In this document: in pieces, positions 5,271 through 57,578 of the stretch | Position numbering within the stretch: position 1 is the stretch's first letter | Layout: each line of letters begins with the position of its first letter | Assembly (NCBI GenBank): GCA_030710605.1 | Contig: CP092863.1 | Coordinates: 108,044,405 to 108,108,404, forward strand | DNA: 64,000 bases | Source of the DNA: Cordylochernes scorpioides | Taxonomy: Eukaryota; Arthropoda; Arachnida; Pseudoscorpiones; Chernetidae | Reading direction: 5' to 3' | The notes under the pieces: generated by a model | What the model was told of the DNA's origin: nothing | The model's database searches: none | The model's input: the letters and a program-made list of their open reading frames with translations, nothing else | Translations under genes and position numbers: made by a program

Positions 5271-7262
5271 TGTGAAAAATAATTGAATGAAGTTGACGTT
5301 AGTCAGTATTCAAAGCTTAATTGATTGATTAAAAAAGAAATTTTGTGAACTAATATAAAATGACAAATATTTCTCCTAACCATATATTTCTAATTCAATA
5401 AGGGTAAATATATATATAATAAACTTCAATATAGTAGTCCTCAAATAACCTCTTTATTGGCTAATCCAATTTTATCTTATCGTGAGTCCTATATATAATT
5501 TATAAATCTAATTAAAGGACTTTTTAGTGGAAGTAGTTTTATTTATAATAAATATATATTCGAGAAATCGAGATATATATTATTAATACAAAAATACTCA
5601 AGTTATTTTATATATAAACTAAATGATTAAATTTATATGTTAAGCTAAATATATGTAGTATATACGCAGAAAATAATATTTTTATATCTGAAAAAAAACC
5701 TTATTAAATTATGTTTTAATAAAAAAAAAAAAGATACCTCTTTTTACATCAGAAATGGATTTATGTGATTTAAAGGCAAATTATTAAAAAGAAGAAATAT
5801 TTCTTACTACGAAAAATATATTTTATCTAACCGCCAAAATTGAGTTTATAGGAAAATAAAAATTGGAAGGAAGTTAGAGTGGATGCCATATTTAAATTAT
5901 ATCCTTTAAGAGGGAGAGAGAGGGAAAGTTTAGTGAAAAACTATTTTAAGGTGAAAAATAAATGTTTTAAAACTTTGTTTTCTGATTACATATATCAATA
6001 TTTTCAAATTCTTTTGAATTTTTTTTACCTTTTTCTTATCCCGCCTGGGTATTTATCAGTGAATTTTGTTTGTTAAATTCGTACCCCAGTCACGCTGTTG
6101 ATTAGAAAATGTTACTGAATAAAATGGCGGGAAATTTAATTCTCAAGCAGACGACATGATTTCCCCTGAGAAAAAAAGAGAACTCAGAAAGCTTCAACAA
6201 CAATTCTGTATTTGAAAAAAAAAGGTTTTAAATGTATATAAATTTTATAGGTCTATTATATATATATTATTTCATATCTTCCTTTTTTATTTTTAAACAA
6301 TATTTTCCAATTTTGGTGCTTACGCGTTTAATAAATCAAATATTTAAATGACAAAAGAAAATTTAAAAAATACTTTTAGAATCAGTGGCTATATTTATTT
6401 AATAAATAGTTTATTACCCAAATAAATAGTGATATTTATTGAATATTTATTTATAAACGTGACACATTCAATTAGCGCATAATTTACTATTTATTGATAA
6501 TGAATGTGTTCTCTGCGTTTATTTTATATTTATTTACTTTTATAGAAATAAATCTTATTTTAATATTGTTGAAATTGCCAATTGCAGATATTTCTACGAT
6601 ATTTGATATGAAGATATTTGCATAGTTTTAGTATTGTCTATGCAAATTGACATCTGTATATATAGCGCGGCCTTGTTGGATTGTTAGTAGGCTAGTGGTT
6701 ATTGGATAGGACAGGCCGACGTGAGCTGCTGATGTACATATAGTTTGTCCTTCTTTTATTGTTTTATATCTTTAGGTAATAAAGGGTATTTCTCTTCTTC
6801 TACGAATGCATAAATTAATCCCAAAAAATATACATACAGAAATAGTTTTATTTCTAAAAGTGTTTATTTAGTGAATATTATCATAAATTGACAATTACAA
6901 ACAAACTTTTATAGATATATTTTATATATATTTTTTTATAGATCAATTACTTCCCGGAAAAATTTTCAACTATATGAAATATGAAAAATCGAAACTATTG
7001 TCATGGATAAGGCCTGAAACTACCTACAACCTCTGCCAAAAGATGGCGCCTTCACCTGTTTCCGATCTGAAACTGGTGTGGGAATCGCCGACTTCTGTGG
7101 TCCTGTTTCCTGGAGCAAATAATGTAAATAGATGCTCATATTGGCTCTGGAGTGTAGATAATTATAAATACCCGTTGATTGCTATTCTATTTGTAAGTAA
7201 TGTGTAGTAGAAATTACAATAAAAGAGGAGTGTTAGAAGTCTCGATGCCGGTTGCTGTTGCA
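5271..7262. other. AT-rich intergenic DNA, no gene supported
   Basis: This is long AT-rich sequence without convincing coding regions. Around 6655-6790 a TATATATAG box is followed by a GC-richer segment and a downstream AATAAAG, which is LTR- or promoter-like but unpaired in this window. An open frame of 77 codons at 6974-7207 has no recognisable motif. The words GCAGACGA (6147) and AGATGGCGC (7041) recur elsewhere and are treated in the findings. Confidence 0.5.
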
Positions 7263-7667
7263 TGAGTTATTGTCTGAATCCCGATATACATGCTAAAAGG
7301 TACAACTTCCTTAAGTTTTGTCCATGAGTGTATCTTTCAGAGTTATTGTCTGAATCCCGATATACATATGAAAGGTACAACTTCCTTAAGTTTTGTCCAT
7401 GAGTGTATCTTTCAGAGTTATTGTCTGAATCCCGATATACATGCTAAAAGGTACAACTTCCTTAAGTTTTGTCCATGAGTGTATCTTTCAGAGTTATTGT
7501 CTGAATCCCGATATACATGCTAAAAGGTACAACTTCCTTAAGTTTTGTCCATGAGTGTATCTTTCAGAGTTATTGTCTGAATCCCGATATACATGCTAAA
7601 AGGTACAACTTCCTTAAGTTTTGTCCATGAGTGTATCTTACAGAGTTATTGTCTGAATCCCGATATA
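7263..7667 (+). repeat. 76-bp satellite, left part of split array
   Basis: More than five consecutive units of the same satellite as at 3475, with high identity between neighbours. The array is cut at GATATA|CAGGG by the 10-kb insertion and continues at 17641. Confidence 0.93.
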
Positions 7668-8101
7668 CAGGGTGATCCAAAAGTCCCGCACAACTTTAAA
7701 AATTAATAACTCCGCGAATATTTGGGCTAGAGCAATGCGGTAAACACCATTGTGTTCAGGATGCAATGGGATTTTTTATGGCAAAAAATGAAAAATTCGA
7801 AATTGATTTTAGTTACAAATTTATTCGCTAGATGGCGCTCTACCAGAATCAGCTATTCAGTGGCCAAATTGTTTGATAAATTGAAAAATATAACTGAACG
7901 ACACGTATTTTTCCTTTTTGAATACCAGGAAAGAACCCAAATAATATCAAATGATAAATTAATAAAAAATCATTTCGCCAAAAGTTAGAATAAATGGTTA
8001 ACGATTTTTAAATACAATCTGCGATATGTAAAATAGGTATATGCAAATTAAAACATGTAGCAAAAAAAAATGATATTTTAGATGCGGTTTGCTGGAATCC
8101 T
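7668..8101 (+). repeat. Left long terminal inverted repeat of the composite
   Basis: The sequence aligns with the complement of 17206-17640 with only scattered differences. It contains the motif TAGATGGCGCTC (from 7829) and a 78-codon open frame (7752-7988). The corresponding frame is also open in the right copy. The residue differences between the two frames show no sign of protein-level conservation. Confidence 0.85.
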
Positions 8102-8131
8102 CTCAGCTATTTATATTTCGAAAATAATATA

Positions 8132-8864
8132 CGAGGGTTGTCCGTTAAATAAGTTCCACGGGGCACCACTGTCATGAGGATCGCTTTTAGGCTCGAGCCG
8201 ACTGCACGGGCTCGTAGCTTGTTCTCCCACCAAGGACACGTCGCTGGTAAGCTTAGTTTTGGCTGAGCAGCCGTTTGTGATGGAGCTTCCCCACATGTCT
8301 CCCGCCAGCTATGAATTACGGTCAGTAATTCGCTTTTTGGCCGCAAAGAAGAATTCGGCAAAGGACATTCATACTGAACTCTGTCAAGTGTATGGAGAAG
8401 GGTGTATGAGTTCCGGGATTGTGCGCAGTAACCCGTCGATCTTCAAGCATTGCCGCTTCGACTTTGGCAATGGTTTCGTTTGAAACCGATGGCCGTCCAG
8501 CACGCGGTTCATCGTGGACGTCTGTTCGGCCGTTTTCAAATTCTCTGACCCATCTGCGCACCATCCCGGAACTCATACACCCTTCTCCATACACTTGACA
8601 GAGTTCAGTATGAATATCCTTTGCCGAATTCTTCTTTGCGGCCAAAAAGCGAATTACTGACCGTAATTTACAGCTGGCGGGAGACATGTGGGGAAGCTCC
8701 ATCACAAACGGCTGCTCAGCCAAAACTAAGCTTACCAGCGACGTGTCCTTGGTGGGAAATTGGAGTGGGGAGAACAAGCTACGAGCCCGTGCAGTCGGCT
8801 CGAGCCTAAAAGCGATCCTCATGACAGTGGTGCCCCGTGGAACTTATTTAACGGACAACCCTCG
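8132..8864. mobile_element. Foldback mariner made of two opposed 5' ends
   Basis: The ends are CGAGGGTTGTCCGTTAAATA and its complement, flanked by TA on both sides (8130-8131 and 8865-8866). The arms (8132-8427 and 8571-8864) are nearly identical inverted copies of the 5' part of a mariner-type transposon. The middle piece, 8428-8570, exists only in minus orientation. Each arm encodes the start of an HTH_48 transposase reading inward. No catalytic domain is present. Confidence 0.88.
8440..8702 (-). pseudogene. Mariner transposase N-terminus (HTH_48), truncated
   Basis: Starting at MELPHMSPASCKL the frame reads a typical HTH_48 DNA-binding region: RSVIRFLAAKKNSAKDIHTE, then VYGEGCMSSGMVRRWVREF, then the linker DEPRAGRPSVSNETI. 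It stops being mariner-like after AMLEDRRVT, where it runs into the antisense of the opposite arm. A shorter copy of the same region (MELPHMSPASYELRSVIRFL) lies on the plus strand from 8280 and fades after 8427. There is no catalytic DDD region. If expressed, it could only bind DNA. Confidence 0.85.
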
Positions 8865-8974
8865 TATTTCTAATTTTTTTAATTCAACTCTCTCTCAGTA
8901 TTGATTATATTTATTTTAATTAATTTGAAAAATATTTATCTATCTCTGATGATTCATTTTACTCTGGAATGCCG

Positions 8975-9235
8975 TTGTTGTTTTTGTCGTGTCCAATAAA
9001 GAGCCTCAGATATCTCCATGCATCTCTATCACAGCAGCAGCAGCAGCAGCAGCATTGTCCACTATCTTGGGTGTGTAAAGCAGCTGCTCTGGGTCTATAT
9101 CAATTTTCTGCAAGGCTGCGGGCATGAGAATATGTGGGTAGGTGTTAGTTCCACACCAGGACAGTTGTTGCATGTTCTATAGGTTCTTGTGCCATCTGGA
9201 TGTATTGTCATCTTTTATAATGTTTTGTTCTAAAT
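8975..9235 (-). repeat. 3' tail of the Jockey-like LINE
   Basis: The minus-strand tail encodes the end of ORF2 with a cysteine-rich stretch (CNNCPGVELTPTH), an Ala run from a CAG microsatellite at about 9032-9053, and RHD/Asn-type codons from GTT repeats. A second copy of this tail, partly tandemly repeated, lies at 35172-35575, which marks it as the shared 3' end of a family. Confidence 0.75.
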
Positions 9236-9239
9236 CTTG

Positions 9240-10681
9240 TTATAGTTTTGTCATTTTTCTCTCGGAGTTTATTTCACATTTTGATCTTTTCTTATTTTTT
9301 TGTTTAATTATCTTGTATTTTGCAAAAGCATTAGCGTCAAATAATGACATTTGTTCTTTCCTTTGGCTCAACTTTCTGACTTCCTTTGCAAATTCAACTG
9401 CCATTTCATTACCCCCACGGGCAGGAATCCATTGTAGAATGCAGTTATTCTCCAATGATATCAGTTGAGTAAGTAACGAATGTATTTTCTGTGTGATTAT
9501 AGTATTGACCTTCTGAATTGCTTCTGGATCGGATATGAAGTCGTTGTACGGTATATTATAATTCCTTCTGCTTGATGCAGGGATGGTTGGTTAAGGCATA
9601 CACCAAGAGCTTTCCAGATAGCTGTCAGTTCACAAGTGAAGTTTGACGAAATCTTTCTTGCTCCTTCTTTGATTTTGATGTATGTTCCATCTTGCAGTAT
9701 TATGTTAATTCCAGCCCCTCCATTACTTATGGTAAGATCTGATGATCCATCTGTATATGCTGTTAAATAATTTATCTGATCGCATAACCCAATTGTGTCA
9801 AGTCCTTTCTTTTTAAGAATGTTTTTATTCTCTTTTTTTTTATTGCAGGGTTCATTCAGGTTAAGATTGATGATTACATTTGATGGCAATGGGGTAGTTA
9901 ATATTGGTTATTCTCGAATTTGAAATTCATTATGTTTCATATTTATGCTCTTTCTAATATTGTTGTCGTACTGAAGTGTTGAAGATCTTTTGAGCCTTTC
10001 TTTTTGTGTCCAGTTCAAATAGGTTCTATGGTTCGGTTTCTTTAGTTTTTAAGCTATTGGTGAATTTTATTGTTTTTAATTGTCTTCTGCTTTCAAGTAA
10101 GTCTAGATCTCATTCTCTCTGAATTTTCTAATTGTTGGTATTTGAAACAGAACCAGTGATTAATTTGGCCGCTTTTGCTTGAACACTGTCTAGTCTTCTT
10201 TTTAGTGATGAACTTGAGGGAGCCCAGACGGGTGTTGCATATTCCATTATTGGCTTTATTAAGGTGATATATGTTGTTCTGAGAATTTTGGGGGTTTTGC
10301 TCCCCAATTTGTTCCACATAGGCTTCTCAGAATGTTTAGGTTTCTGGTAGCTCTATTTGAGGTGCTAATTATGTGTTCTCTAAATCGCAATTCCTCATCA
10401 GGTATCACACCTAGGTAATTTGGAGAACAAATTTTATCAATTATATGGTTTTTTATACTTATTTTGGAGTTAAATTCATGCCCTTTTTCCTGTCAGTGAA
10501 GGAGACCTATAGGTTTGTGTTTATTGGGTTCTTTTCATTTGAATTTCATTGCCCACTTCTCATTTATGTGTTCAGTATTTTTCTGATATTTCTATACTGC
10601 TACTTGTGTGCCATATGGCTATATAATCTGCATAACAGGCAACTTTTGTGTCTTCAGTGAGGTAAGGATGGATGTTGCTAA
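9240..10681 (-). pseudogene. Jockey-like ORF2: RT C-terminal half and RNase H
   Basis: The region begins with the RT active-site box, which reads CYADYIAIW, so the second catalytic Asp of YADD is replaced by Tyr. RT thumb-type sequence follows (TYITLIKPIMEYATPVWAPS, then LDSVQAKAAKLITGS). The RNase H domain shows YTDGSSDLTISNGGAG with its first Asp, and NFTCELTAIWKALG with the Glu. After a frame change comes LQWIPARGGNEMAVEFAKE, the usual end of LINE RNase H domains. At least three frame changes are needed to read it through. Confidence 0.85.
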
Positions 10682-10852
10682 GGTTGTGTCGTAATTAGAT
10701 GTACAACAACTCAAACTTGACCATGACTCTTTTTTTAGCTCTTATTATTTTCGTTTGGACAACAAAAAATGTCCAATTTATATACACATATATTCTTACA
10801 TAATGAGACTTTAAAGAATGCAAATAATCTTCATCTATTTACATACACAACA
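10682..10852 (-). repeat. 3' LTR of the Gypsy-type element
   Basis: It aligns with 13223-13361 but carries an extra T-rich segment (about 10728-10755). The first base differs from the TG start of the other copy. It directly abuts the polypurine tract. Confidence 0.85.
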
Positions 10853-10859
10853 CATCTCC

Positions 10860-11250
10860 CCCCTTAATAATACTCCAGTCGGTCTGGGGGTTTCCTTGCT
10901 CTCTGAGGTCTAGGACTGCGGACGGGCACTTGCACAGCGGCAGGCTCCGGTTTAGGAGTGCAAGAGGGCACGTGCACAGCAGCAGGCCCTGGTCTAGGAG
11001 TGCAAGAGGGTACGTGCACAGAAGCAGTCTCCTCCTTGTTTCCTGATGTAACCTCTGGAACCTCCTCTTCACTTTATTTCTGACTTCCACCTACAGGCTT
11101 CTCTCCTGATGTTCGAGGAAGTATCAAATGTCTTGTCTCCACTTGTGTCTTTCTCACAGTTCGCAATTGATTGATATGCCTCTTATACACGACGCCCTCG
11201 CAACTTATAAGGTAGTGATGACAGCTCAATAATTTCAAAATGGTACCTTT
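10860..11250 (-). pseudogene. Gypsy-type pol C-terminal tail after integrase
   Basis: The minus strand reads CEGVVYKRHINQLRTVRKTQ, the region after the integrase core that is typical of Ty3/Gypsy pol proteins. It then has three proline-rich units of about 14 residues (VHVPSCTPRPGPAA, VHVPSCTPKPEPAA, VQVPVRSPRPQR) and ends KPPDRLEYY just before the polypurine tract. An in-frame stop lies near the middle. The missing integrase core shows the internal deletion. Confidence 0.7.
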
Positions 11251-11279
11251 TTTCCATTTAGGTCTAGGTTAAATTTACA

Positions 11280-11730
11280 TTTATCTCTGTTTAACTTTAA
11301 ACCTTTTTCTAGCAATCATCTAAACAATAGATCCAACTTTTGTTCGTGATCTTCAAAGTCTTTTCCTGCAACCAAAATATCATCTATGTAGCAGGCCACA
11401 CCTGGCAAATCAGCAAATAGACTTTCCATAATCCTCTGAAATTTATTTGGTGCTACCGCTACGTCATATGGTAGTCTTTTATAAGAAAACAACCCATTTG
11501 TTGTGTTTATATCAATAACAGCTCTGGCTTCTTCCGCTAACATAACTTGTAAGTAAGCCTGTGATAGGTCTAGAGTCGAAAGTTCGGTGCTTGTAGATAA
11601 TTTTGAAAAGATCTCATCGATCGATGGAAGGGGATACCTATCTAATTCTATTGCTTTATTAGCTGTACATCTAAAATCACCACATATCCTTACACTCTAC
11701 CATCCTTTTTTAATACTGGTACTATTGGAG
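11280..11730 (-). pseudogene. Gypsy-type reverse transcriptase fragment
   Basis: The translation shows the RT blocks in order: VRICGDFRCTANKAIELDRY, then YPLPSIDEIFSKLS, then LSTLDLSQAYLQV with the first catalytic Asp. Next is FSYKRLPYDVAVAPNKFQRI, where VAVAP replaces the usual FGxxxAP, followed by GVACYIDDILVAGKDFEDH, which retains the catalytic YIDD. It ends at KLNRDKCKFNL. Sequence up to this point is typical of Ty3/Gypsy, and the RNase H that should follow is absent. Confidence 0.88.
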
Positions 11731-11755
11731 CGGTCCAATATGCATGAACTATAGG

Positions 11756-12640
11756 TTATAAAATGCAAGAATTCACTAAACGATCAATTTCATTCTCTAC
11801 TTTGTTTTTTAGAGAGAAAGGTAAACTTCTTCTGGCCTTACAAAACACAGGAGTCACATCCTCTTTTGATTTAAAATTTATTTTAACATCCTTTAGACAG
11901 CCCAAATCTTTGTTAAACAAATCTGCATATCTATCAATCAAACTATTTCTATTAGATTCATTATTTAAATTTTTAATGCTAAACAATCTAGAATAATCAA
12001 GTTTTAACTGTTTAAGCCATTCTCTTTCTAACAAAATTACCTGGGTTTTCCATTTACAACTATTAATCGTAAATATTGGTTGACTTCTTTTACAAAAACA
12101 CTTTTGACCTATAATCTCTATTGATTTACCACAAAAGGATTTTAATCTTAAATTTGTTGGAAATACATTTTTACCTTGCCAATTAATCTTATAAATATAT
12201 TTAGGTATTAACGTAACTGGACTTCCTGTATCTATTGTAAAGCACAAAGAATAATCATCTACTGTTAAGTTTATTGTGGCATCAGTTTCGCCCTGTACAG
12301 AATATATAGAGTCCTCTTGTACGAATTTACATCCCCACATTTTTTACTAGCTTTGCAGACCCTACTTAAATGACCTAGTATTTTACATTTTAAAACAAGT
12401 ATTTGTTCTATTAGGGCAAACAGAGGCCACGTGTGAATGTCTTTCGCCACATATATAACACATTATTTCTCCCCTTTGCCTGAAAGGCCTATGCTGCACC
12501 ATACTATTATTGTACTCACCCTTTTATCTTTTCCATTCACAGGGGATATTTTGGCCACTAATTTATCTTGTAATTCTCTTGTATTTATCTCCGCCAGTTC
12601 GAACGAGATTGCCACTGCAAAACTTTATCCTGGGTGACAT
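11756..12640 (-). pseudogene. Gypsy-type gag zinc knuckles and aspartic protease
   Basis: In minus orientation a gag-type nucleocapsid region at about 12450-12350 carries a first CCHC-like knuckle (CYICGERH then HVASVC). A second knuckle (CFK/CKILGHLSRVC) is broken by a one-base shift. A protease follows at 12340-11756, with the active site FTIDTGSPVTLIP. Then comes a linker ending FCKARRSLPFSLKNKVENEI, which leads into the RT. Weak gag-like sequence continues towards the primer-binding site at about 13215, with many frame breaks. Confidence 0.82.
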
Positions 12641-13222
12641 CGTCGTTTTCTTGTAGTAGCTTCTTTTGCAGGCTTTCCAACTTGAATCCAGTCACAAAAT
12701 TGTCTCGCATCATGGTTCCCAACATATCGCCGAAATTACAATTTATTGCTAAATGTTTCAATTCTCTAAGATATTCCGAAATTGATTATCATTCCTGTTG
12801 AATTCTCTTTAAAAATCTGCATCGCTGTGGTATCACTTTCTTCTTTAGATCCAAATGCAGCTTAATTCTTTGAATGATAGTATCATAGGGTTGATCTTTC
12901 ATTAGACCAGGAAGAAAATGTCGTTTCCCTGCTTCAAAGTTTCAGAATCTGGTAGCGAGGTTAAAATAAGCACTTTAATCTCTTATCCTTCAGATGCCAA
13001 AAAGAGAGCCTCAAATTTTTGTACAAAAAGATTGAAGTGTCCTCCACTGGGCTATAGCATCTAAAAGGTACTATCAACTTTGAACTTGTCATGCTGATCT
13101 TTTCTACTCCTTTGTTTTCTTGATCCAGATAGTTTTAAAGATGTAGTTGTTATATTTGCATAGACGCCGTTTTCCTCAGCTTTTTACTGGCTCTGTAGAT
13201 AGCGCATTCTCGTCGCCACTTT

Positions 13223-13361
13223 TGTTGTGTCGTAATTAGACGTTCAAGAGCTCAAACTTGACCATGGCCAACAACAAATGTCCAATTTATATATACATAT
13301 ATTTTTACATAATGAGGCTTTAAATGATACAAATAATATTCATCTATTTACATACACAACA
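13223..13361 (-). repeat. 5' LTR of the Gypsy-type element
   Basis: It starts TGTTGTGTCG and ends TACACAACA. It matches the other LTR but lacks a T-rich segment. A primer-binding-site-like GTGGCGACG lies directly inside. Confidence 0.85.
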
Positions 13362-14570
13362 GTTAATATATAGCGAGAAGAGTAGAGGACTGAGCACAGA
13401 TCCCTGAGGTACACCAGCCCATGTTCTTCGGTCCTTGGAAAATGTTCCATTGACCCGAACCTTTATCCTTCTTCCCCTTAAGAAGTCTGCAATCCAGATT
13501 AAGGTATTTCCTCTTACTCCGATGTTGTGCAGCCTTTCAAATAATTTCTACACTCGATCAAAAGCTGAGGTCATATCCAGGAATACGGCCGTTGTCTTCT
13601 TTGGCGGTTTTTCCTAGAAATCTATTATTGATTGACAGAAGTAGAACAGTTTATCAGTTGTACAGTGTCTGGATCTTTAGGCAATTTGGTAGAAGTTTAT
13701 TTTATTATTGTTAGTGAGCCAGACTATGAGCCTAGAGTGGATAATTCATTCTGTTATTTTACAAAGTATGCTGGTAAGAGCAATTGGCCGATAGTTCTTG
13801 CATTCCTTGGCATCTTTGGTTTCAGTATTGGCACTATAATTGATATCTTCCAATTCTTTGGTAGTTTACCAATTTGCCATGAAATGTTCAGTATTCGTAG
13901 GAGTTGATTTTTAGCTTTGTCTCCAAAGTGTTTAATCATTTGACCAAAGATTAGAGCATCTCCAGGTGACATCTTGGATTTAACTTTCCTATTGGTGAGT
14001 TTAGCTCATTCAGTGTGAAGTCTCTCGTGTAAATATCTTGTTGATGGTAATTTCTTGCTTGTTTAACTAACCTGTTTACATTATTTTTTTAGTCCTGCCT
14101 TCATTCGTATAGCTGAGTCTGGAAGTGCGTGAAAGATATTCAGCAATTATTTCAGCCATCTGTTTTTGTTCGTTCTCGCTATTCATATCGGTTAGAGTAT
14201 TGGAGGATTATTTTGATTGTTTTATAACATTAATTATATTCCAGTGATGGCTTTCATTTTTTGGATCCATTTTTTTCGCAGAATTCTGCCCATTTTTCTC
14301 TCTTGTTTGAATATCCAAATTTCTTGTTCTATTTTGTGAATAATATCAATTAATTCCTTTATGATTTCTTCTGTTTTATTTGTTTTAAGAAGTCCATTGA
14401 TATTGTCTCTCTCTGCAATCATTGCCTAGATATTGTGGTCCTTCCAGTAAAGTATTCACAGGTCTTTACGTATACCTCTAGGTATCGATACTTTTGAAGC
14501 TTTGGATATGTTCGAAGAGAATTTTTCCAATTTTTTGTCAATCGTTTTGTGATTTAATTCTTTGTTGCAC
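13362..14570 (-). pseudogene. Jockey-like ORF2: RT N-terminal half
   Basis: The minus strand reads RT blocks of non-LTR elements: a segment of finger motifs (ISWQIGKLPKNWKISIIVPILKP, 13754-13972), the palm segment VFLDMTSAFDRV at about 13560-13600, and AGVPQGSVLSPLLFSLYIN at 13365-13425. The frame then ends abruptly at the LTR element and resumes at 10681 with LATSILTSLKTQKLPV. At least two frame changes are present. Confidence 0.85.
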
Positions 14571-14576
14571 AGTTCT

Positions 14577-15330
14577 TCAAGCTTTTCTGTGATTTTTTTC
14601 CAGTGTTCTTTTATTCTGTTGGAAATTCTCAATTTTGAATTTTATGGTTGTTATAATTGGTCTGTGGTCACTGATTGCACTTTTCAGAATTTTCCATTGT
14701 GTTGTGGGTGCGATGTTGTAATTTATCGCTGTGATGTCTATTGCGGATTCTGTGCCTGTGTACTTGGATAGATAGGTGTTATTTTCGTTATTTAACGGTG
14801 TAAGGTCGAGGTCGGTTAGCATGTCCTCAACCTGCTGACCTTTGTTATCCTGGAAAAGTGATCCCCAAGTTGGTCTTTCGGCGTTAAAATCACCAAGTAT
14901 GATTGCGATATCCGAAGACGCTTCACTTAATGTCTCTATCAGGCCTGTATTGATGCTAGTATTATCGTGGTCATAAACATTTATGATTGGAATTGTTTTA
15001 TCTGTAAGATAGATTTCTATTGCCTGAGCTTCTGTCGTGCTTTCTCTAGGCTTACTCTGATTATAGGCGATACCCTTAAATTTGATTTCAAGAGTTTTAA
15101 TCAAAACGGCAAGTCCTCCTCCGAATTTTCCCGGTCTGTCCTTTCGTAGTGTTGTATAATCTTTGATATTGAATCTCAGATTCTGATTCAATTTTGTCTC
15201 CTGAAGACAAGTAATATGTACATTATTGTCACAGAGAAGACAAGTCAGCTCTTTATTTTCCTCTGGGTACCATTTATATTGAGTTGTAGTAGATTGAATT
15301 GTGTCCTCGTAGTAGATTTCTCATCATGAG
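14577..15330 (-). pseudogene. Jockey-like ORF2: APE-type endonuclease
   Basis: After a frameshifted N-terminus (LQLNINGTQRKIK, then CDNNVHITCLQETKL, which holds the catalytic Glu) the frame is open for 204 codons. Recognisable blocks are RPGKFGGGLAVLIK, then IAIILGDFNAERPTWGS with the GDFN catalytic motif, then DLTPLNNENNTYLSKYTGTESAIDITA, and finally KSAISDHRPIIT, with the SDHRP motif that closes the active site. This is the target-nicking domain of a LINE. The domain itself looks fairly intact, but the polyprotein is broken. Confidence 0.9.
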
Positions 15331-15450
15331 CTCGAGCTGCAGCTCCTGACGCGGCGGTTACCCCGGACGCGGTAGCATTACTGGAGATATCAGTTTTGCT
15401 CTTCATTTGAAAATGGGTGCCTTTGCAACGTTAGTCATCTACATCTACAG

Positions 15451-16538
15451 GATAAAGCACTCTTGGTGAATTATTTTAATTGTGATTCAGAATCTGCCAC
15501 TGAAGCTTTACGAGCGTTTCGTTCCTTTAAAGGTATTCGAAGCGGTAAAGGACCAATGAGTTGCTACTCTCCGAAGCGATTGATTAAAAGTTTTGAGGAA
15601 ACTGGATCTCTGGAAACAAAACCTCGGAGTGGAAGACCATCGACATGCAAGTCAGTGGCTGTTACGGTTTTGCAGAATGCTGAAGCTATTGAAACGTTAT
15701 CCACGTATGGAGAAGTAAGTGCTAGACAAGTTTCTCGACAAACGGGGATTTCGTATGGAACAGTTTGGATTGAACACACATTTAGAATTTTTCTATAAAA
15801 ATACCCTAACAAAATTCAAAGTTTTCACGAGTTGAAAGTCAGCGATTTTGAGAAGCGTCAAGAATTCGCTGCATGGGTTTTCAGGCAAATTGATATTGAT
15901 GGAAACTGGCTGTCAAATGTTCTAAGAACAGATGATGTTCACTTATATCTAAAGGGAGAATTTAACATTCAAAACTGCCTCATTTTGGCAACAGAAACCC
16001 CTAGGAATTTTACAGAAATATCACTTCATCAGCACAGAGTTACAGTTTTGTGTGGGTTCACTTCTTCTTTTATTTTTGGGCCCATTTTCTTTGAAAATAT
16101 CAATCGAAGAACTTTTAAACCCGTTTTTGTAACTGGTGAACGTTATGTTCAACCTTTGAGAGAAAAGGTTATTCTCATATTGCAGGACAGACAAGCACTA
16201 AGCGAAATAACATTCATGCAAGATGGAGGACTTCCTCATATCTCCCGCGGAGCCAAACAATTGCTGAAGGATACGTTCGGTGAAATTCGTTGATAAGTCG
16301 CCACTTTATATACCAGTGGCCTCCAATATCACCAGACTTGACGCCTTACAATTTCGGTTATGGGGGTACATTAAGTCGCGTTTTTATCGATGCCGGCCTA
16401 TCACATTGGCCATGTTGAAGGCTTCTATCAGATGGCACGTTTTATAAATTTCAACTATTTAATTGTGCCCATTCTGTCATCTATCGTCTGCAGGCGGTGT
16501 TTGAGAATGAAGGGCGCCACATTGAGCAAGGATTGTGA
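15451..16538 (+). pseudogene. DUF4817-type mariner-like transposase, inactive
   Basis: The N-terminus shows ALRAFRSFKGIRSGKGPMS, then KRLIKSFEETGSLETKPRSGRPS, then YGEVSARQVSRQTGISYGTVW: a helix-turn-helix DNA-binding region as in DUF4817-containing arthropod transposases. A stop and frame break occur at 15799. The catalytic part (15832-16293) has RTDDVHLYLKGEFN with the first Asp and FMQDGGLPHISRG with the second. After another frame change, SPDLTPYNFGYG has Asn where the third acidic residue should be. The C-terminus ends NEGRHIEQGL. It is most likely the original gene of the 10-kb mariner. Confidence 0.87.
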
Positions 16539-17205
16539 CCTAATACAAGAGAGAAGGCAGTTACCTCATGTGTTATATTTTGCAGCTCTTTGTTTTGGGT
16601 TATGGGAATAATAAATGCTGTCCTCACATCTTGACTCTTTTTTTTCTGTGAACAGTAATTTTTTTGTTAATCATTTGCCCACATCTTATATTATGTCGTG
16701 CAGGCCAAAGTGTTATAACTTCTCCAATAACACTGGTATACACAATTTTAACCCTTATGTTTAATTTATCGCTTTTCGCTCATTAGAAAAAATAGCATAA
16801 GGAATATTTTCTGTATCCCCCCCAACTTTAGAAATTTTGCGCAAAAAATAATACAAAATGATTTTGCTACCACGTTTTTCAACGTAAAAGGTCGATTTAA
16901 AAATGATTTTTTTTGAGGGGATACATTTTCAAAATTATGTACAGTATAATAAACAATGATAACATTTGACAAACCCATAGGATATTTGGAATAAAGTACG
17001 ACAAATATATTTTGTCACTCCCCTCTATTTTTCATCTTTGGATCATGACAAATATCCAGTTAAATAGTCAAGTGTCGCCAATTAGTCAAGAAACTATACA
17101 TTCCTTATAGCACGAAATCCTATTAGTAGTGCCATCATAATTTTTGGTACTATATTAACATTTCAAAAATCGTCTATTGATATCAGTAGTTATTTTCAAA
17201 CATTC
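16539..17205. other. Non-coding interior of the composite element
   Basis: This sequence between the transposase pseudogene and the right inverted end has no recognisable motif. A 70-codon frame on the minus strand is not supported. Confidence 0.55.
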
Positions 17206-17640
17206 AATCTATTTCACAAAACTCCATCTAAAATATAAATATTTTTGCTACATGTTTTAATTTGCATATACCTATTTTACATATCTCAGATTGTATTTAA
17301 TAATCGTTAACCATTTCTTCTAACTTTTGGCGAAACGGTGTTTTATTAATTTATCATTTGATATTATTAGGGTTCTTTCCTGGTATTCAAAAAGGAAAAA
17401 TACGTGTCGTTCAGTTATATTTTTCAATTTATCAAACAATTTGGCCGCTTGAAAGGTGATTCTGGTAGAGCGCCATCTAGCGAATAAAGTTGTAACTAAA
17501 ATCAATTTCGAATTTTTCATTTTTTGCCATAAAAAATCCCATTGCATCCTGAACACAATGGTGTTTACCGCATTGCTCTAGCCCAAATATTCGCGGAGTT
17601 ATTAATTTTTAAAGTTGTGCGGGACTTTTGGATCACCCGG
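17206..17640 (-). repeat. Right long terminal inverted repeat of the composite
   Basis: This is the complement of 7668-8101 over nearly all its length, with the outer end GACTTTTGGATCACCCGG. It contains GCGCCATCTAG at 17470. The TA duplicate follows at 17641. Confidence 0.87.
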
Positions 17641-18220
17641 TACATGCTAAAAGGTACAACTTCCTTGAGTTTTGTCCATGAGTGTATCTTTCAGAGTTAT
17701 TGTCTGAATCCCGATATACATGCTAAAAGGTACAACTTCTTAAAGTTTTGTCCATGAGTGTATCTTTCAGAGTTATTGTCTGAATCCAGATATACATGCT
17801 AAAAGTTACAACTTCCTTAAGTTTTGTCCATGAGTGTATCTTTCAGAGTTATTGTCTTAATCCCGATATACATGCTAAAAGGTACAACTTCCTTAAGTTT
17901 TGTACATGAGTGTATCTTTCAGAGTTATTGTCTGAATCCCGATATACATGCTAAAAGCTACAACTTCCTTAAGTTTTGTCCATGAGTGTATCTTTCAGAG
18001 TTATTGTTTGAATCCCGATATACATGCTAGAAGGTACAACTTCCTTAAGTTTTGTCCATGAGTGTATCTTTCAGAGTTATTGTCTGAATCCTGATATACA
18101 TGCTAAAAGATACAACTTCCTTAAGCCTAGTCCATGAGTGTATGTTTCAGAGTTATTGTCTCAATCCCGATATACATGTTAAAAGGTACAACTTCCTTAA
18201 GTTCTGTCAATGAGTATATT
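17641..18220 (+). repeat. 76-bp satellite, right part of split array
   Basis: Eight or so units continue the array that stops at 7667, beginning exactly at TACATGCTAAAAGG. Units differ by single substitutions (for example TTGTTTGAATCC and TTAAGCCTAG). The last unit drifts into unique sequence. Confidence 0.93.
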
Positions 18221-21650: not shown

Positions 21651-21850
21651 TAAAGAAGGCATCTTCTGACCACGAGCACATGTGCTTTTTAGATGGCAGA
21701 GCGCCATCTAGTGGAGCAAAAATAAACTAAACGTTTATTTAGCTTGCTCCGTGATATTTGGCCAAACCAATTTCTTGATAAATCAAGAAAAGCCATCCAC
21801 GATAAAAAGCACATGTGCTCGTGGTCAGGAGATGCCTTCTTTATTTTTAA
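21644..21850. mobile_element. MITE family A (foldback)
   Basis: The ends TTAAAAATAAAGAAGGCATC and its complement are inverted, continuing into CTGACCACGAGCACATGTGC and its complement. The left arm carries GCGCCATCTAGTGG (21701-21714). The centre has TTGATAAATCAAGAAAAGCC. Other copies or fragments lie at 28861, 29340, 37078, 46646 and 63300. Confidence 0.85.
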
Positions 21851-22834: not shown

Positions 22835-23070
22835 CATATGTCCATAATTTGCTTGAATACCATTTCTAAGATTCTGCCCTTCAATGTAGCATATAAAAGC
22901 AGAATGATCCAATACAGTATTAGAGCTCGAAAGAGGCAGTCTGGTAGACCAAATTGGCAAAACCGCTGGAAGGGTTCACCACTGATGCGCCAAGCCCTCC
23001 TAATATTTTTTTTTCATCGCAGTAAGGACAGTAGGAGTTTGTTTTATGTGTAAAAAAAAACATTCGTGTT
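22835..23070 (-). repeat. MITE/SINE family D copy
   Basis: Landmarks are GATCCAATACAGTATTAGAGC, then CGCTGGAAGGGTTCACCACTG, then GCAGTAAGGACAGTAGGAG. The same series occurs at about ten places in this window in both orientations. Confidence 0.7.
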
Positions 23071-37077: not shown

Positions 37078-37220
37078 TTAAAAATAAAAAAGGAATCTCC
37101 TGACCACGAGCACATGTGCTTTTTAGATGGCAGAGCGCCATCTAGTGGAGCAAAAATAAACTTCTGCCATCTAAAAAGCACATGTGCTCGTGGTCAGGAG
37201 ATGCCTTTTTTATTTTTAAT
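37078..37220. mobile_element. MITE family A, short foldback
   Basis: Both arms meet with almost no central spacer: CTCCTGACCACGAGCACATG...CATGTGCTCGTGGTCAGGAG. The left arm carries GCGCCATCTAGTGG at 37135. The right flank is the ATCAACACCTGACCCACTTA segment. Confidence 0.85.
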
Positions 37221-37931: not shown

Positions 37932-37946
37932 TATATATATATATAT

Positions 37947-38323: not shown

Positions 38324-39010
38324 TTTATGCACCTTATCCCAGTACAATGTTACATTTGTACTATTTTTTCACATATATATATAAATAGATTTCTGTTGTA
38401 TTTTGGAATTAGGTTGATATATTGAATTATTATGATTTGTTGCTTGATTTTGGTATCCATGAGTATCATTATGTATTGTTCTGCAGTCGTGGCAATAATA
38501 ATCTTGAAAATATAAAGTCTTGATCAGAGATTTCTTTATTTCAGCTAAGGAATATATATGAAAAACATAATTTGATTAAAGTACTGCCTGGCTTAAGGCA
38601 AGTAGAACAAGGAAAACAAAAGATTATTTACATAATGTACAAAGATTTGAGCCGGCCATCGGGAAAGAACATCAACGAGTTTTTATAGGGGAAGCATGAC
38701 CTCTGGCGGTCGATTTAACGGGGTATTAGGATCTATGAAATATAATTTTTAAAAGAATAATATTTTAATATAACACATATGTCGTGATCGAATGGAAGAG
38801 TACAACCGTTATACTTACAATCCCCAAGAATTAGTTCCAGCCAAGTGAGCAACGACGTGCCGTAGCCCGCGATGTCTGCCACGTTTATTTTTATAGTTTT
38901 TATAGATGGATGAATTGGCATATTTACATTTTAACACAACATATTTACATACTTATTTTGGCGAAAATAAATTATACCTCTTGGGTATTATGCAAATTAT
39001 GACATATATA
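38324..39010. other. AT-rich, nothing recognised
   Basis: A segment near 38640-38720 is less AT-rich but shows no coding frame or partner. Confidence 0.5.
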
Positions 39011-41496: not shown

Positions 41497-41747
41497 TTAA
41501 GAAAAAGGTCATATCCTTATCATGCAACTGAAAGTTGCTGATGGCTTGCGCCATCTATCGGAATAAATATCAACTATTCTCGTTGATTTTTAATTGATTT
41601 TTTTTCCTTGATTAACCAAGAATGGGTATTTAGCCAATTCTGGAATAATAAAAAAAAAATAACGAGAATAGTTGATATTTATTCCGATATATGGCGCAAG
41701 CCATCAGCAATTTTCAGTTGCACGATAAGTAGATGCCTTTTTCTTAA
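41497..41747. mobile_element. MITE family B (foldback)
   Basis: The arms TTAAGAAAAAGGTCATATCC and its inverse enclose TTGATTAACCAAGAATGGG. The left arm has GCGCCATCT at 41548. In the right arm the core is mutated to ATATGGCGC. Confidence 0.85.
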
Positions 41748-44839: not shown

Positions 44840-45115
44840 ATATATTCGAAACTATTATAGACACGGATGATTCTTTTTAAATTTAAACAATTTCTACTGT
44901 CCTTACTGCAATGGAAAAAATTAATGGGAGGGCCAAGCTCATCAGTGGTGAACCCTACCAGCGGTTTCGCTAGTTTAATCTATCATACCGCTGTTATATT
45001 ACATTTTTCGATCTTCTTTTTATAGTGATATTGATGCTAGACTCTTGAAATGGGTATTTTAGATGAACTATGGACATAAGCTTTGAGGACAGTAGAATTA
45101 CAATACAATAATGCG
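44840..45115 (+). repeat. MITE family D copy
   Basis: Landmarks GAAACTATTATAGACACGGA, then GGCCAAGCTCATCAGTGGTG, then TTTAATCTATCATACCGCTG, ending AGGACAGTAGAATTACA. The left arm is truncated. Confidence 0.72.
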
Positions 45116-45489: not shown

Positions 45490-45832
45490 CGAATTTTTAT
45501 AATAGATGGCGCGCTAATGCATCATAATATAAATTATATATTTAAATGATGTTTAACTCATATGAAAAGCTAAAGACCACCTTCATATACTTTCTATTCT
45601 TCAAAATGTGGACATGTCTCTCTCCTATATAATCTTATTTTTTCACATTTATATATTTTATCTGCATTTAACCATTTATAATCTTATATTTTCTGCCTTT
45701 CCCTGCATTTTATGGCAGTCATCCTTTTCTCAGAACAAATTTGTTTACATAGATGAAAATATTTTTGTATTATAATCATGTATTTTATTAAGAAAATTTC
45801 TAATTATGTAAATATTTACGTATATATATATA
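45490..45832. other. MITE D edge then AT-rich DNA
   Basis: The word ATAGATGGCGCGC (45502) belongs to a family D end. The remainder is featureless. Confidence 0.5.
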
Positions 45833-46724: not shown

Positions 46725-46825
46725 TTGTCACCAACCCGAGGTCGCTAGTTTGCGGCGACGGTCAATAGATGGCGTCTGATTTTGACGTCTATTTTGACGG
46801 GAGAGGCGACCCTCGTCTCTTTAGA
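46725..46825 (+). repeat. MITE family C fragment
   Basis: The words TTGTGGCTTTGTCACCAACC and GACGGTCAATAGATGGCGTC are followed by a GGGAGAGGCGA end. Confidence 0.7.
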
Positions 46826-48590: not shown

Positions 48591-48644
48591 GATGTTTTCA
48601 ACTTAATGCTGATACAAGGGAATATTTTATTGAATTAGAACGTT

Positions 48645-48732
48645 ATTAAGATTAAACTGGCGAAACGGCTGGGAGGGTTCACCAGTGATGAGCCAGGCTC
48701 TCCCAGTATTTTATCATTGCAGTGAGGACAGT
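48645..48732 (-). repeat. MITE family D fragment
   Basis: ACTGGCGAAACGGCTGGGAGGG, then TTCACCAGTGATGAGCCAGG, then TTGCAGTGAGGACAGT match the family core. It directly precedes the Penelope fragment. Confidence 0.7.
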
Positions 48733-50594: not shown

Positions 50595-50745
50595 TTAAGA
50601 AAAAGGCATCTCCTAATCGTGAAACTAAAAGTTGTTGATGGTTTGCGCCATCTATCGGAATAAATCTCAACTATTCGTTGATTTTTTAAAATTATTATAA
50701 AATTGGCCAAATACCCATTCTTGATTAATCAAAAGAAAAGCTAAC
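50595..50745 (+). repeat. MITE family B left arm
   Basis: It begins TTAAGAAAAAGGCATCTCC, with GCGCCATCT at 50645. The element is cut after AAAGCTAACC by the LINE fragment. Confidence 0.8.
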
Positions 50746-51849: not shown

Positions 51850-52120
51850 ATACACTCATGGACAAAACTTAAGGGAGTTGTACCTTTTAGCATGTATATC
51901 GGGATTCAGACAATAACTCTGAAATAAACTCATGGACAAAACTTAAGGAAGTTGTACCTTTTAGCATGTATATCGGGACTCAGATAATAACTCTGAAATA
52001 TATTACAGTGACCTTTATTGAAGACACACGAGATAACCAAGTGTGAACAAAATTGCTTCTGTGTTTTTTTTAAAACAGACGACCGGCGACATCAAAGACT
52101 TTCCACTTTCCTAAGTGTCA
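51850..52120 (-). repeat. MITE-satellite, two units plus full lead
   Basis: It starts with the terminus TATACACTCATGGACAAAAC, has two copies of the 76-bp unit, then the single-copy MITE part (complement of TTCAATAAAGGTCACTG, TTGGTTATCTCG, CGCCGGTCGTCTG). It ends at CTTTCCACTTTCCTAAGTG. Confidence 0.85.
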
Positions 52121-53994: not shown

Positions 53995-55220
53995 TGAACA
54001 TAAGCTTATGTCCATAGTTTACTTGAAAACCATTTCTAAGATTCCATCCTTCAGTGTAGCATATAAAAGCAGAATGATCCAATACAGTATTAGAGCTCTG
54101 AGAAGCGGTCTGGTAGATTAAATTGGCGAAACCGCTGGGAGGGTTCACCACTGATGAGCCAAGCCCTCCCAATATATTTTTTAATCGCAGTAAGGACAGT
54201 AGAAGTTCGTTTTATGTATAAAAGAAACATTCGCGCTTTTAAATCCTTTTATTTTATATGTATAGATGGCGCGTTATTGCTTTGTGTTAATATATAATAT
54301 GTATATATGGTTTTGACCAAGGACTTGGTTGTTGTTGTGTGATGTAATCAATATATAGCGTGAGATGTTTTTAGTTCTTATGATAATTCTGTAATAATAA
54401 AATATTATACAAATATATAAGAGTAGCATATAATCTCTTTTAATAGAGAAACTACACTACCTAAGTTTATTGAATATTAGGTAGAAGAATACATAACAAT
54501 AAGAAATGGCAACATTAAAACACGACTTTTCCACATAAACTTCTACTGTCCCTATTGAGATGAATACAGTATTAGAGCTCTAAAATAAGCGGTCTGGTAG
54601 ATTAAATAGGCGAAACCGCTTGGAGGGTTCACCACTGATGAGCCAAGCCTTCCCAATATTTTCCATCGCAGTAAGGATAGTAGAAGTTTGTTTTATGTAT
54701 AAAAAAAACTTTCGTGCTTTACTATACCTTCATTTATTATATATAAATGGCGCGTTAGTGACTTAGAATTAAAATCCCGAGAGTAATCTGAACTAAGATG
54801 AATTTTGATACATTTGCGCGCCATCTGTTATCAAAATTTGAAACTATTATAGACGCGTATGATTCTTTTAAAAAATTAAACAATTACTACTGCCCTCATT
54901 GCAATAGAAAAATTAATGGAAGGACCTGGCTCATCAGTGGTGAACCCTCCCAGTGGTTTCGCCAGTTTAATCTACCATGAGCTGATGCATACTGATGAGC
55001 CAGGCCCTCCCATTAATTTTTACATTGCAGTAAGGGCAGTAGAAATTGTTTTTTTTTTATGGTAGATTAAACTGGCGAAACCGCTGAGAGGGTTCACCAC
55101 TGAGGGGCCAGGCCTTCCATTAATTTTTCCATTGCAGTAGGGGCAGTAGAAATTGTTATTTTTTTTTTAAGAATCATACGCGTCTATAATAGTTTTGTAT
55201 TTTGATAAGATAAATTTCCT
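53995..55220. repeat. Cluster of MITE family D copies
   Basis: At least four copies in alternating orientation: 53995-54290, 54535-54760, 54790-54980 and 54975-55220. The plus copy at 54798-54980 keeps an open frame with YYCPHCNRKINGRTWLISGE then PSQWFRQFNLP, which could be chance or the remnant of a coding segment. Cores AGATGGCGC lie at 54264 and 54828. Confidence 0.78.
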
Positions 55221-55379
55221 TATTGATTAATAGAATAAATCTCACAAGGCGACGATGTGCATGGAGGAAAAATCTACTTCCGTCTTGTGATATTTCCTCT
55301 ATTAGAGAGTGGTTGATATAAAAAAATGTATTTTTTTTAAATTACATATTACTGGTATTATTCTGAACTTCGCTTTTGC

Positions 55380-55960
55380 CGGTCCCAAGCCCGGATGAAA
55401 AAGGAGGAGTGGAGCAGTAACAAGCTCTCTAAAAAACCTGGGCTCAGCTGGCCCGGCTGATAGTACCCTGTAAGGGCTTCAGGGATACAGGATGAGCAGC
55501 GTTTGTACTCCATGTTAGGAGCGGCTGTACATGGTGTCTGTTCCTCATGTCAGAGGCGGCCATTTCATATTGGAGCTAAGTTCTACTGAGTAGTGCTCCC
55601 AGTCTTAATGACAAAGACATTCTACTTCACCCAGACATGAAACTCCGCCTCTGCCGTCCCAAGCCCGGATGAAAAAGGAGGAGGGGGAGCATTAACAAGC
55701 TCACTAAAAAACCTGGGCTCAGCTGGCCCGGTTGATAGTACCTTGTAAGGGCTCCTAATCCAGGGATACAGGATGAGCAGCGTTTGTACTACATGCGGCT
55801 GCATATGGCGTCTATTCCTTATGTCAGAGGCGGCCATTTCTTTTGGAGCTAAGTCGGCCTGCCACTGAGTAGTGCTCCCAGTCTTAATGACAAAGGCATT
55901 CTACTTCACTATCAAAAGTCTCAAACTCTAGACTTTATACCCTAATATAGTTGAGTGGAG
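55380..55960 (+). repeat. Repeat family F, two tandem copies
   Basis: The series TCCCAAGCCCGGATGAAAAA, CTGGGCTCAGCTGGCCCGG, GGGATACAGGATGAGCAGCG and CTCATGTCAGAGGCGGCCAT occurs twice. It ends with ATAGTTGAGTGGAGATAAG, the same end that reaches the UNC93 open frame at about 33400. Confidence 0.8.
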
Positions 55961-56989
55961 ATAAGAAAGAAGAAGTCTTTGAACTATATTTTCTATATGA
56001 TTTATAAAAAATATATCTACCAACTCTAGTCAAAATTCGTCCCGTAATAAAATAAAATAAATAAAAAATTGGGTGTCGTTCACGCTTGGTTTATTCCTAA
56101 GTCCAATTCTGACATGGCCCGTGGCGAGAAAGTGCCAAAATTTATTTTCCTCAGAATAAAATATATAAAATTTCAAATATATCTATTTTTAGCCATCAAA
56201 AGTAAAAAAAAAAAAAATATATTTTTGTTTCTAAGCAACAATATTCTTATCACTATTTGGTTCCCGCCAAAATCAAAGATGGCGCTATTTTTTTGATTGT
56301 CTGGCAGAAGAAAATAAAAAAGTGTCGTCTGCTTCGATTAAAAATGTATTTTTATTGACTTCAAAAAAAAAAAAAAAAAGCGTCGTTTTGATGAAATTTT
56401 GAAAATGCGACAAATATAATTATATTAAAAAATATATAATAATACATCAACAGAATAAAATAAGAGAATTATATATTATTTAATTATAATTAGTAAAAAA
56501 AACCAACTCTCTTCATTAAATTAATTCATATCACTGACAGGATTTTTTTAAAGATAAAATAAACAATATGGTGTATTAATAATAAATAATAAAAAAGAAA
56601 ATATAATTAAAATATAATATTTAAAAGAAAGAGAGAGTATATTAGAAATATTTTCAAGAATATATAGGCATTAATTAAAAAAATAATGAAAAAAGTTTAT
56701 ATACTTAATATATGAGATACAATAATTAATATTTATTAAAGGAAGGAAGAGAGAGAAAATGTGATTTTAAAAAGTTATTAAGAATAGTTATAATTAAATT
56801 AACACCTCTCTATTAACGAGAGAGATAGAAAATGAGGGTTTATATACACTAATTCGGTTTGAATTTAATATTAATTAGGCGTATAATTATAATAAACTAA
56901 TTAGGTATTTAATCACACCATGGAGGATTGGTATTGAGGTCGGGTTAGATTAGCGTCATTCAACCATAGAACTGCTCTCTAGAGTTGGG
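55961..56989. other. AT-rich, no gene seen
   Basis: A single AGATGGCGC (56277) and a TCGTCTGC (56325) occur in otherwise featureless sequence. Lys/Ile-rich frames are not supported. Confidence 0.5.
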
Positions 56990-57385
56990 AAGACGCTTCT
57001 TTAACGACCACGCTTTTTTAACGACCACACCTTTTTAACGTTCACGCCTAATTAGAGAAGCGCTACTTTAACGACCAGAATTTTAAAAATTTTACGCCTC
57101 TTTAACGATCATTAATAATAAAAAAACACGCCTCTTTAACGACCACACCTTTTAAATGGTCAGGCCTATTTAAAGAACACGCATCTATAACGACCATACC
57201 TTTTAAATGGTCACGCCTATTTAAAGACCACGTCTTTTTAACGGTCACATCTATTTAAAGATCAAGCTCCTTTAATGACCAAATAAACGACCACGTTTAT
57301 TTAAAGACCATGCGTCTTCAACTACCACACTTATTTGAATGCAACGCCTAGTTAAATAACACGCCTCTTTAACGACCATATATGT
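56990..57385. repeat. Irregular minisatellite of TTTAACGACCACGCC words
   Basis: Variants of CTTTAACGACCACGCCT and TTTAAATGGTCACGCCTATT recur about 20 times at 15-25 bp spacing. The two forms are partly complementary, so the array can fold locally. Confidence 0.82.
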
Positions 57386-57392
57386 ATATAGC

Positions 57393-57578
57393 TAAAGAAA
57401 AAGGCATCTTCTGATCATGCAACTAAAAGTTACTGATGACTTGCTTCATCTGTCGGAATAAATATAAACTAATATTGGATTTTTAATTATTCCAGAGTTG
57501 GCTAAATATATATTCCGACAGATGGCGCAAGCCATCAGCAAATTTTAGTTGCACGATCAGGAGATGCCTTTTTATTAA
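57393..57578. mobile_element. MITE family B (foldback)
   Basis: The arms AAAGAAAAAGGCATCTTCTG and its inverse are present. The core is intact in the right arm (57520) and mutated in the left (TGCTTCATCTGTCGG). Confidence 0.82.

Follow-up and report, generated by a model that had tools for sequence, protein, structure and literature searches.

The question raised by this locus is why a single 9-mer, AGATGGCGC, recurs in mobile elements of several kinds. The reading that we tentatively favour, while stopping short of calling it probable, is that these elements carry a site in two parts, which a multi-finger protein of the host, most likely CTCF, is predicted to bind.

The 9-mer and its upstream block

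The window, a stretch of 64 kb analysed here at full length, contains 22 exact copies of AGATGGCGC (both strands counted), compared with a mean of 0.10 and a maximum of 1 in 100 dinucleotide shuffles of the window. The initial annotation had also reported 22 copies with well under one expected, and the shuffles bear this out; the GC content of about 31% that it assumed is 34% in the window. The coordinates it listed are exact for 21 of the 22 copies, the one given as 54828 being in fact at 54818 on the minus strand, and the flanking forms it quoted for families A, B, D and the mariner are correct. By our grouping, 20 of the 22 exact copies are in repeats (A 4, B 8, D 4, E 2, mariner ends 2). 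The features are listed below, with scores from an approximate CTCF matrix that may not be the host's.

7668–17640: mariner-type element of about 10 kb, inverted ends CAGGGTGATCCAAAAGTCCCG..., nested elements inside
7830–7838, plus: AGATGGCGC, left inverted end of this element, TAGTT at -20
17470–17478, minus: AGATGGCGC, right inverted end, TAGTT at -20
21701–21709, minus: family A site (CCACTAGATGGCGC)
29099–29107, plus: family A site
29503–29511, plus: family A site
37135–37143, minus: family A site, within a long hairpin
30905–30913, minus: family B site (CCGAYAGATGGCGC)
31098–31106, plus: family B site
33861–33869, plus: family B site
37996–38004, minus: family B site, left arm of element 37941–38328
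38265–38273, plus: family B site, right arm of element 37941–38328
41548–41556, minus: family B site
50645–50653, minus: family B site
57520–57528, plus: family B site
25513–25521, minus: family D site
25886–25894, minus: family D site
45504–45512, plus: family D site
54818–54826, minus: family D site
31349–31357, plus: family E site (E is a relative of D)
54264–54272, plus: family E site
7041–7049, plus: AGATGGCGC with no repeat found around it, preceded by A (-1), score 17.1
56277–56285, plus: AGATGGCGC with no repeat found around it, preceded by A (-1), score -4.0
28918–28926, minus: decayed A copy (AGATGACGC)
63381–63389, plus: decayed A copy (AGATGACGC)
41689–41697, plus: decayed B copy (ATATGGCGC)
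57443–57451, minus: decayed B copy (AGATGAAGC)
54745–54753, plus: decayed E copy (AAATGGCGC)
46746–46775, plus: family F, TAGTT-N16-AGATGGCGT

For the last entry, one relative carries AGATGGTGT at 1664 and another AGATAGTGT near 3110. BLAST searches of the window with the 100 bases that flank the copies at 7041 and 56277 on either side returned no match that ran convincingly through the word.

The 9-mer does not stand alone. TAGTT is located exactly 20 bases upstream of AGATGGCGC in 14 of the 22 copies, belonging to A/B, D/E and the mariner ends. When all spacings from 0 to 60 were considered, with at most one mismatch in the 9-mer, 17 pairs were found at 15 and one pair each at 11, 16 and 48. 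For three random segments to share a run of at least 5 at one offset, P is 2e-4 (1e-3 with rotated segments). AGATGGCGC is the right-hand half of a site of about 29 bases, TAGTT-N15-AGATGGCGC, with a spacing that is fixed in most copies. A core-promoter reading (Inr plus DPE), judged by eye, was dropped, the upstream block lacking a fixed distance.

Exact searches of contig collections returned no match for the family A form or the D/E hammerhead described below (viral contigs), for the mariner end (genome contigs) or for the combined A/B/mariner pattern (both). The family B form matched exactly in four viral contigs; we take these matches as chance, the two of the four examined around the match both lacking the flanking sequence of the element.

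Kinship of the repeats and their hammerhead cores

The initial annotation had described several unrelated families that share no other sequence. On the contrary, A and B form one group, with an alignment that extends through the motif (29503 with 37996, 72% over 240 bp, E 2e-32), D and E are homologous (25513 with 54264, 71% over 311 bp), and TAGTT at -20 occurs in the mariner as well as in copies from each of A, B, D and E. In addition, some A/B, D/E and F copies share the same order, a hammerhead core followed by about 88–154 bases and then the site:

38078–38143, minus: type I hammerhead core in a family B element, core at 38127
29380–29415, plus: decayed type I hammerhead core upstream of the family A site 29503
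2940–2985, minus: type I hammerhead core in family F
54103–54173, plus: hammerhead core with S-G-C block order, upstream of the family E site 54264

The strict type I pattern was found on the minus strand at 38127 (B) and 2979 (F), the former scoring 26.5 bits with Rfam HH9, below the gathering score of 52. Of the 16 site copies in A/B, 2 have a recognisable core ahead of them (37996 and, decayed, 29503), and in D/E hammerhead blocks precede 4 of the 7. A strict type-SGC pattern with stems I, II and III matched once, at 54110 on the plus strand, and never in 100 block-shuffled windows. The other 8 aligned copies fail one or more pairs of this pattern; in stem II, both partners differ between copies at two pairs, with an overall covariation score that was reached in 95 of 500 shuffles. 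The segment 54103–54173 is a possible non-circularly permuted (type-SGC) hammerhead.

From the grouping of A with B and this shared order of core, spacer and site, most copies probably represent one inheritance, and the site within the hammerhead elements is probably inherited. For all but the mariner, this goes some way towards the outcome that the initial annotation had named as refuting its reading, namely descent of all families from one ancestor carrying the word; independent carriage is argued for by the mariner only. The latter, lying inside a 76-bp satellite, has inverted ends of 404 bp that are 96% alike, a TA duplication (read by eye) and transposase-like ORFs inside, with a weak helix-turn-helix match, below the cut-off, at 15376–15795. 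Another mariner is nested at 8322–8843. The similarity between the mariner and A/B has a P of about 0.004 upstream and 0.01–0.06 over both sides, so that the block may have been captured into the mariner ends. The label MITE given earlier to A, B and D is doubtful: several A/B elements do have inverted arms, but no consistent target duplication was found by eye and hammerhead cores lie in or beside some copies.

These relationships are consistent with a rival explanation that we take seriously as a minority possibility, in which A, B, D, E and F belong to a single superfamily of hammerhead retroelements and inherited the block as one of its cis-elements (promoter, RNA fold or enzyme-recognised stretch), the likeness of the block to a CTCF site being incidental and the mariner having captured it. 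Besides the homologies and the upstream cores, it would fit with the location of the D/E site near the apparent 3′ end of the element, and with the presence, in most A/B copies, of a downstream GCCATC(T) to which the word can pair. However, neither D and E nor the mariner has this pairing partner, for which reason an RNA hairpin was rejected as the general cause, and both ends of the mariner carry both blocks at the same spacing.

Conservation of the word

Decay of the word relative to its surroundings had been set beforehand as a test, and within this window the word changes more slowly. With the inverted arms of one element counted as two copies, which are not independent, the 9-mer shows 6 mismatches in 207 sites compared with about 33 expected from flank rates (5 in 180 compared with about 29 when family E is removed). 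The share of its sites that depart from the majority base of the family is 3.7% in A, 3.3% in B, 0 in D and 3.7% in E; in the same order, the values are 11.9, 19.5, 12.9 and 17.9% for the other columns and 15.2, 22.2, 8.8 and 28.9% for those flank columns in which C or G predominates. This count leaves out the D copy 55106, which matches up to -1 and then diverges, the D/E copies 44943 and 22984, which end before the site, the D-like copies at 978 and 60960–61180, family F, and the mariner (two ends, one element).

In the A+B alignment, none of the 103 windows of 9 columns is more conserved than the 9-mer, which ranks first. It stands out less within single families, where 16 of 120 (A), 4 of 109 (B), 19 of 86 (D) and 7 of 70 (E) windows are as conserved. 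A leave-one-out search with the 9-mer masked still recovered 16 of the 18 exact copies of A, B, D and E; both E copies were lost, and therefore entered the set through the word itself.

Plain amplification of a word that was present in founder copies and has no function appears unlikely. Copy number does account for 20 of the 22 copies and the figure for D would suit this explanation, but in each of A, B, D and E the flanks have changed more than the word, which also recurs together with TAGTT in the mariner ends.

Fit to CTCF and comparison with known systems

We return to the reading of a two-part site for CTCF. The resemblance to a CTCF core noted in the initial annotation is strong in family A, but only moderate in B and in the mariner ends, and poor in D/E. 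With the matrix used here, family A copies rank 1–4 of all 19-mers of the window (19.9–21.2 bits), the mariner scores 14.1 and B 11.1–13.5, while D/E (-6.0 to 6.2) score no differently from the 9-mer placed in random contexts (average 2.8, 95th percentile 13.5). As had been proposed, the family A form fits the longer CTCF consensus: CCACYAGRKGGCRS occurs 4 times in the window, each time in a family A copy. It counts against CTCF that no permitted variant of the core other than the AGATGGCGC form is enriched; the window has a single AGAGGGCGC and neither AGGTGGCGC nor AGGGGGCGC. In line with YAGRKGGCRS, position -1 holds T or C in every one of the 20 repeat copies.

That the site serves some other factor of the host, such as a YY1/Pho-type protein on AAGATGGCG or another multi-finger protein, is quite improbable: AGATGGCG matches the YY1 core, AAGATGGCG occurs twice in the window and both copies outside repeats have A at -1, but no repeat copy does, AAGATGGCGGC is absent from the window, and a four-finger protein leaves the second block 20 bases away unexplained.

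Under the CTCF reading, the site of about 29 bases would be recognised by a host protein with a long zinc-finger array, presumably CTCF. The hammerhead elements would have received it by descent from a shared ancestor, and the mariner ends may have gained it separately or captured it. Binding could help the element by opening chromatin, or by driving or insulating its transcription. A stronger version, in which hammerhead-bearing retroelements (including ones with a non-circularly permuted hammerhead) and an unrelated mariner each acquired the same 29-base CTCF site, and so would seed an invertebrate genome with full-length insulator-protein sites, we consider rather doubtful. Mammalian SINEs seed their genome with such sites. 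Among the literature matches listed (titles and abstract openings, openly licensed), none dealt with AGATGGCGC in mobile elements or with CTCF sites in hammerhead elements.

If a protein binds, and provided that the host is an invertebrate, this would represent a spread of architectural-protein sites by transposable elements outside vertebrates, and would point to an upstream half-site not seen in Drosophila studies. If instead the block belongs to the elements, it would be a conserved functional block of hammerhead retroelements, the mobilisation of which is poorly known. In either case, the 29-base site is a definite sequence that can be tested.

Like the metazoan retrozymes and Penelope-like elements described in PMC7229834 and PMC11167929, the repeats are short AT-rich units, some with hammerhead cores, and are flanked by AT-rich stretches (by eye). 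In contrast to these, many A/B copies are inverted pairs instead of plain tandems, nine translated ORF segments gave no GIY-YIG match, and the sole RT domain found (11316–11693) lies among gag-pol-like ORFs. The segment 54103–54173 has the order reported for type-SGC hammerheads (scissile, GAAA, CUGANGA, stems I–III), with an extra stem (PMC10085705). That report describes them from metatranscriptomes, with none in genomes of known organisms, whereas the candidate here, known from its sequence, lies in a repeated genomic element.

As for CTCF, GCTAGATGGCGC, which is the mariner form, is part of a CTCF site in the Qp promoter of EBV (PMC2921154) and of another that is given in a figure legend (PMC5739101). 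Fingers 9–11 of vertebrate CTCF are reported to contact an upstream motif, usually 5 bases from the core, described as absent from Drosophila CTCF peaks (PMC12885311). Compared with this vertebrate two-part site, the core fits A, and less well B and the mariner. The second block likewise falls within the upstream interval, but it is TAGTT instead of CAGCTGTTCC-like, with only 3 of 5 letters matching the vertebrate motif. CTCF-like sites in transposable elements are reported for mammalian retrotransposons and for Gypsy, hAT and SINE repeats of lamprey (PMC5504073). In these vertebrates too, several mobile-element families carry and spread CTCF-like sites, with binding established by ChIP-seq, whereas the sites described here are known from sequence alone and their carriers are hammerhead-associated repeats together with a mariner.

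Abundance and location of the nine-base word

The CTCF-like word AGATGGCGC occurs as 22 exact matches in the 64,000 bases, against a mean of 0.10 in shuffles, and 35 matches with at most one mismatch were found in the window where 4.43 were expected. The 22 exact copies of the initial annotation were thus borne out, at the positions proposed except for one that was wrong by ten (correctly 54818). No enrichment of other CTCF core variants was observed in the window. As judged by context BLAST (among the matches listed) together with profiles, 20 of the 22 copies lie inside repeats:

21701, 29099, 29503, 37135: family A sites
30905, 31098, 33861, 37996, 38265, 41548, 50645, 57520: family B sites
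25513, 25886, 45504, 54818: family D sites
31349, 54264: family E sites
7830 (+), 17470 (-): mariner-type element (about 10 kb), one site in each of its 404-bp inverted ends

For the remaining copies, 7041 and 56277, no convincing match spanning the word was found elsewhere in the window. The former (7041-7200 +) has an A three bases upstream of its ATG, a good start context; this ATG opens a short ORF (by eye), and a splice-donor-like GTAAGT lies at about 7195. The latter (56240-56290 +) is preceded by TTCCCGCCAAAA, which resembles an E2F site, and this region is perhaps a promoter.

The window also contains a UNC-93 family ORF, runs of N and transposons nested in one another, features suggestive of an animal genome assembly. 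The mariner-type element encloses ORFs of RNase H, RT, LINE endonuclease-like and transposase-like type (9497-16293), and a long hairpin of family A arms (37092-37205) gives several miRNA-family matches, all below gathering scores. A 76-bp satellite forms many short dispersed arrays, one of which harbors the mariner-type element:

3484-3837, 7264-7669, 17641-18219, 26281-26739: satellite arrays
51850-52000, 58328-58945, 59463-59690, 61904-62062: further satellite arrays

Conservation of the word and of an upstream TAGTT

Decay was assessed with motif-masked profiles built from exact copies. Sixteen A and B copies spanned the site (12 exact) and seven D and E copies carried it (6 exact); in a leave-one-out assay 16 of 18 exact copies were recovered, both E copies being lost. 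The 9-mer showed 6 mismatches over 207 sites in the 23 copies, compared to about 33 predicted by flank rates. For flank columns whose majority base is C or G, the rates were 15.2% in A, 22.2% in B, 8.8% in D and 28.9% in E. The 9-mer ranked first in conservation among 103 nine-column windows for A and B combined, and among the top two of 72 for D and E. In single families, windows as conserved as the word amounted to 16/120 in A, 4/109 in B, 19/86 in D and 7/70 in E.

TAGTT is located exactly 20 bases upstream of the word in 14 of the 22 exact copies (A 3/4, B 5/8, D 3/4, E 1/2, mariner 2/2), and in neither of the two non-repeat copies. When spacings of 0-60 were scanned, allowing one mismatch in the 9-mer, 17 pairs were separated by 15 bases, with one pair each at 11 (978), 16 (family F) and 48. 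Triplets were formed with a single copy each from A/B, D/E and mariner; in 64 of 144, five consecutive bases coincide at an identical offset (P 2e-4 with random and 1e-3 with rotated triplets). Ungapped comparison of the 25 upstream bases of mariner with A, B, D and E gave P values of 0.010, 0.005, 0.018 and 0.062, respectively; downstream similarity was above chance in no pair in the same comparison.

TGGCCAAA or its complement also starts upstream of the word, at a distance of 55-68 bases, in 5 of 12 A/B copies (21701 -, 29099 +, 37996 -, 50645 -, 30905 -) and, at a single mariner end (7830 +) out of two, 31 bases past the word start. It may perhaps be another block shared by A/B and mariner.

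Hammerhead cores and probable kinship of the families

Hammerhead ribozyme blocks accompany several of these elements:

38078-38143 - (core at 38127 -): apparently intact type I minimal core, family B element
29380-29415 +: decayed type I minimal core, preceding the family A site 29503
2940-2985 - (core at 2979 -): type I minimal core, family F
1546-1580 +: decayed type I minimal core, family F relative
54103-54173 +: blocks arranged S-G-C, plus an extra pseudoknot stem
25610-25679 -, 44924-44993 -, 54587-54657 +, 54916-54984 -: relatives of the preceding
22934-23004 +, 55049-55120 +, 48636-48706 +, 30542-30610 -: further relatives

No hammerhead core was seen before the site in the remaining 14 of 16 A/B copies. 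The D/E blocks, whose order differs from type I, precede 4 of 7 site copies, and five more such copies have no following site (44924, 22934, 55049, 48636, 30542). Site forms in family F are AGATGGCGT, AGATGGTGT and AGATAGTGT. The expected cleavage point lies upstream of the word, at a distance of 88 bases in F, 154 in E, 94 in B and about 94 in A.

A strict S-G-C pattern matched once in the window and never in 100 shuffles; stem covariation among the copies in the window was not above shuffles. In block order and extra pseudoknot stem, the 54103-54173 copy matches the non-circular permutation termed type-SGC in PMC10085705, which reports none from the genomes of known organisms. Two twister-P1-like matches (55361-55413 + and 55636-55689 +), about 275 bases apart, fall below Rfam's gathering score.

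The families had been considered unrelated. This does not hold for A and B, which can be aligned across the site for as much as 240 bases (BLAST, among the matches listed). E is related to D, with 71% identity over 311 bp between 25513 and 54264 (BLAST, among the matches listed); E against one D copy gave P of 0.004 or less, and the averaged test 0.057. Upstream similarity between A/B and D/E is weak (P 0.009-0.064, three of four representative pairs below 0.1; above 0.1 for pairs involving 54264; 0.03-0.30 in the averaged test), and alignment of these two groups does not establish common ancestry. Since the order hammerhead then site is shared, we infer that A/B, D/E and F probably have a common ancestry. 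Support for an independent origin of the site comes from mariner alone.

A candidate CTCF site

On the best supported reading, hammerhead-associated elements and mariner carry a conserved site in two parts, which would be recognized by a multi-finger host protein. CTCF leads as the candidate. All scores here derive from a vertebrate CTCF matrix. With this matrix, the top four 19-mers of the window are the A copies (19.9-21.2 bits). Scores are 14.1 for mariner, 11.1-13.5 for B, 2.2-6.2 for D, and 1.2 and -6.0 for E; of the non-repeat copies, 7041 reaches 17.1 and 56277 reaches -4.0. The 9-mer in random contexts has a mean of 2.8 and a 95th percentile of 13.5. Judged by these scores, A would be a very good candidate CTCF site, and mariner and B plausible ones, while D/E are not distinguished from random contexts.

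Two published CTCF sites, given in PMC5739101 and PMC2921154, contain the mariner form GCTAGATGGCGC. Compared with the vertebrate CTCF upstream half-site, as described in PMC12885311, the distance of TAGTT fits but its letters differ; the same source reports this half-site missing in Drosophila. In vertebrates, it is already established that several TE families have spread CTCF sites, as stated for lamprey in PMC5504073.
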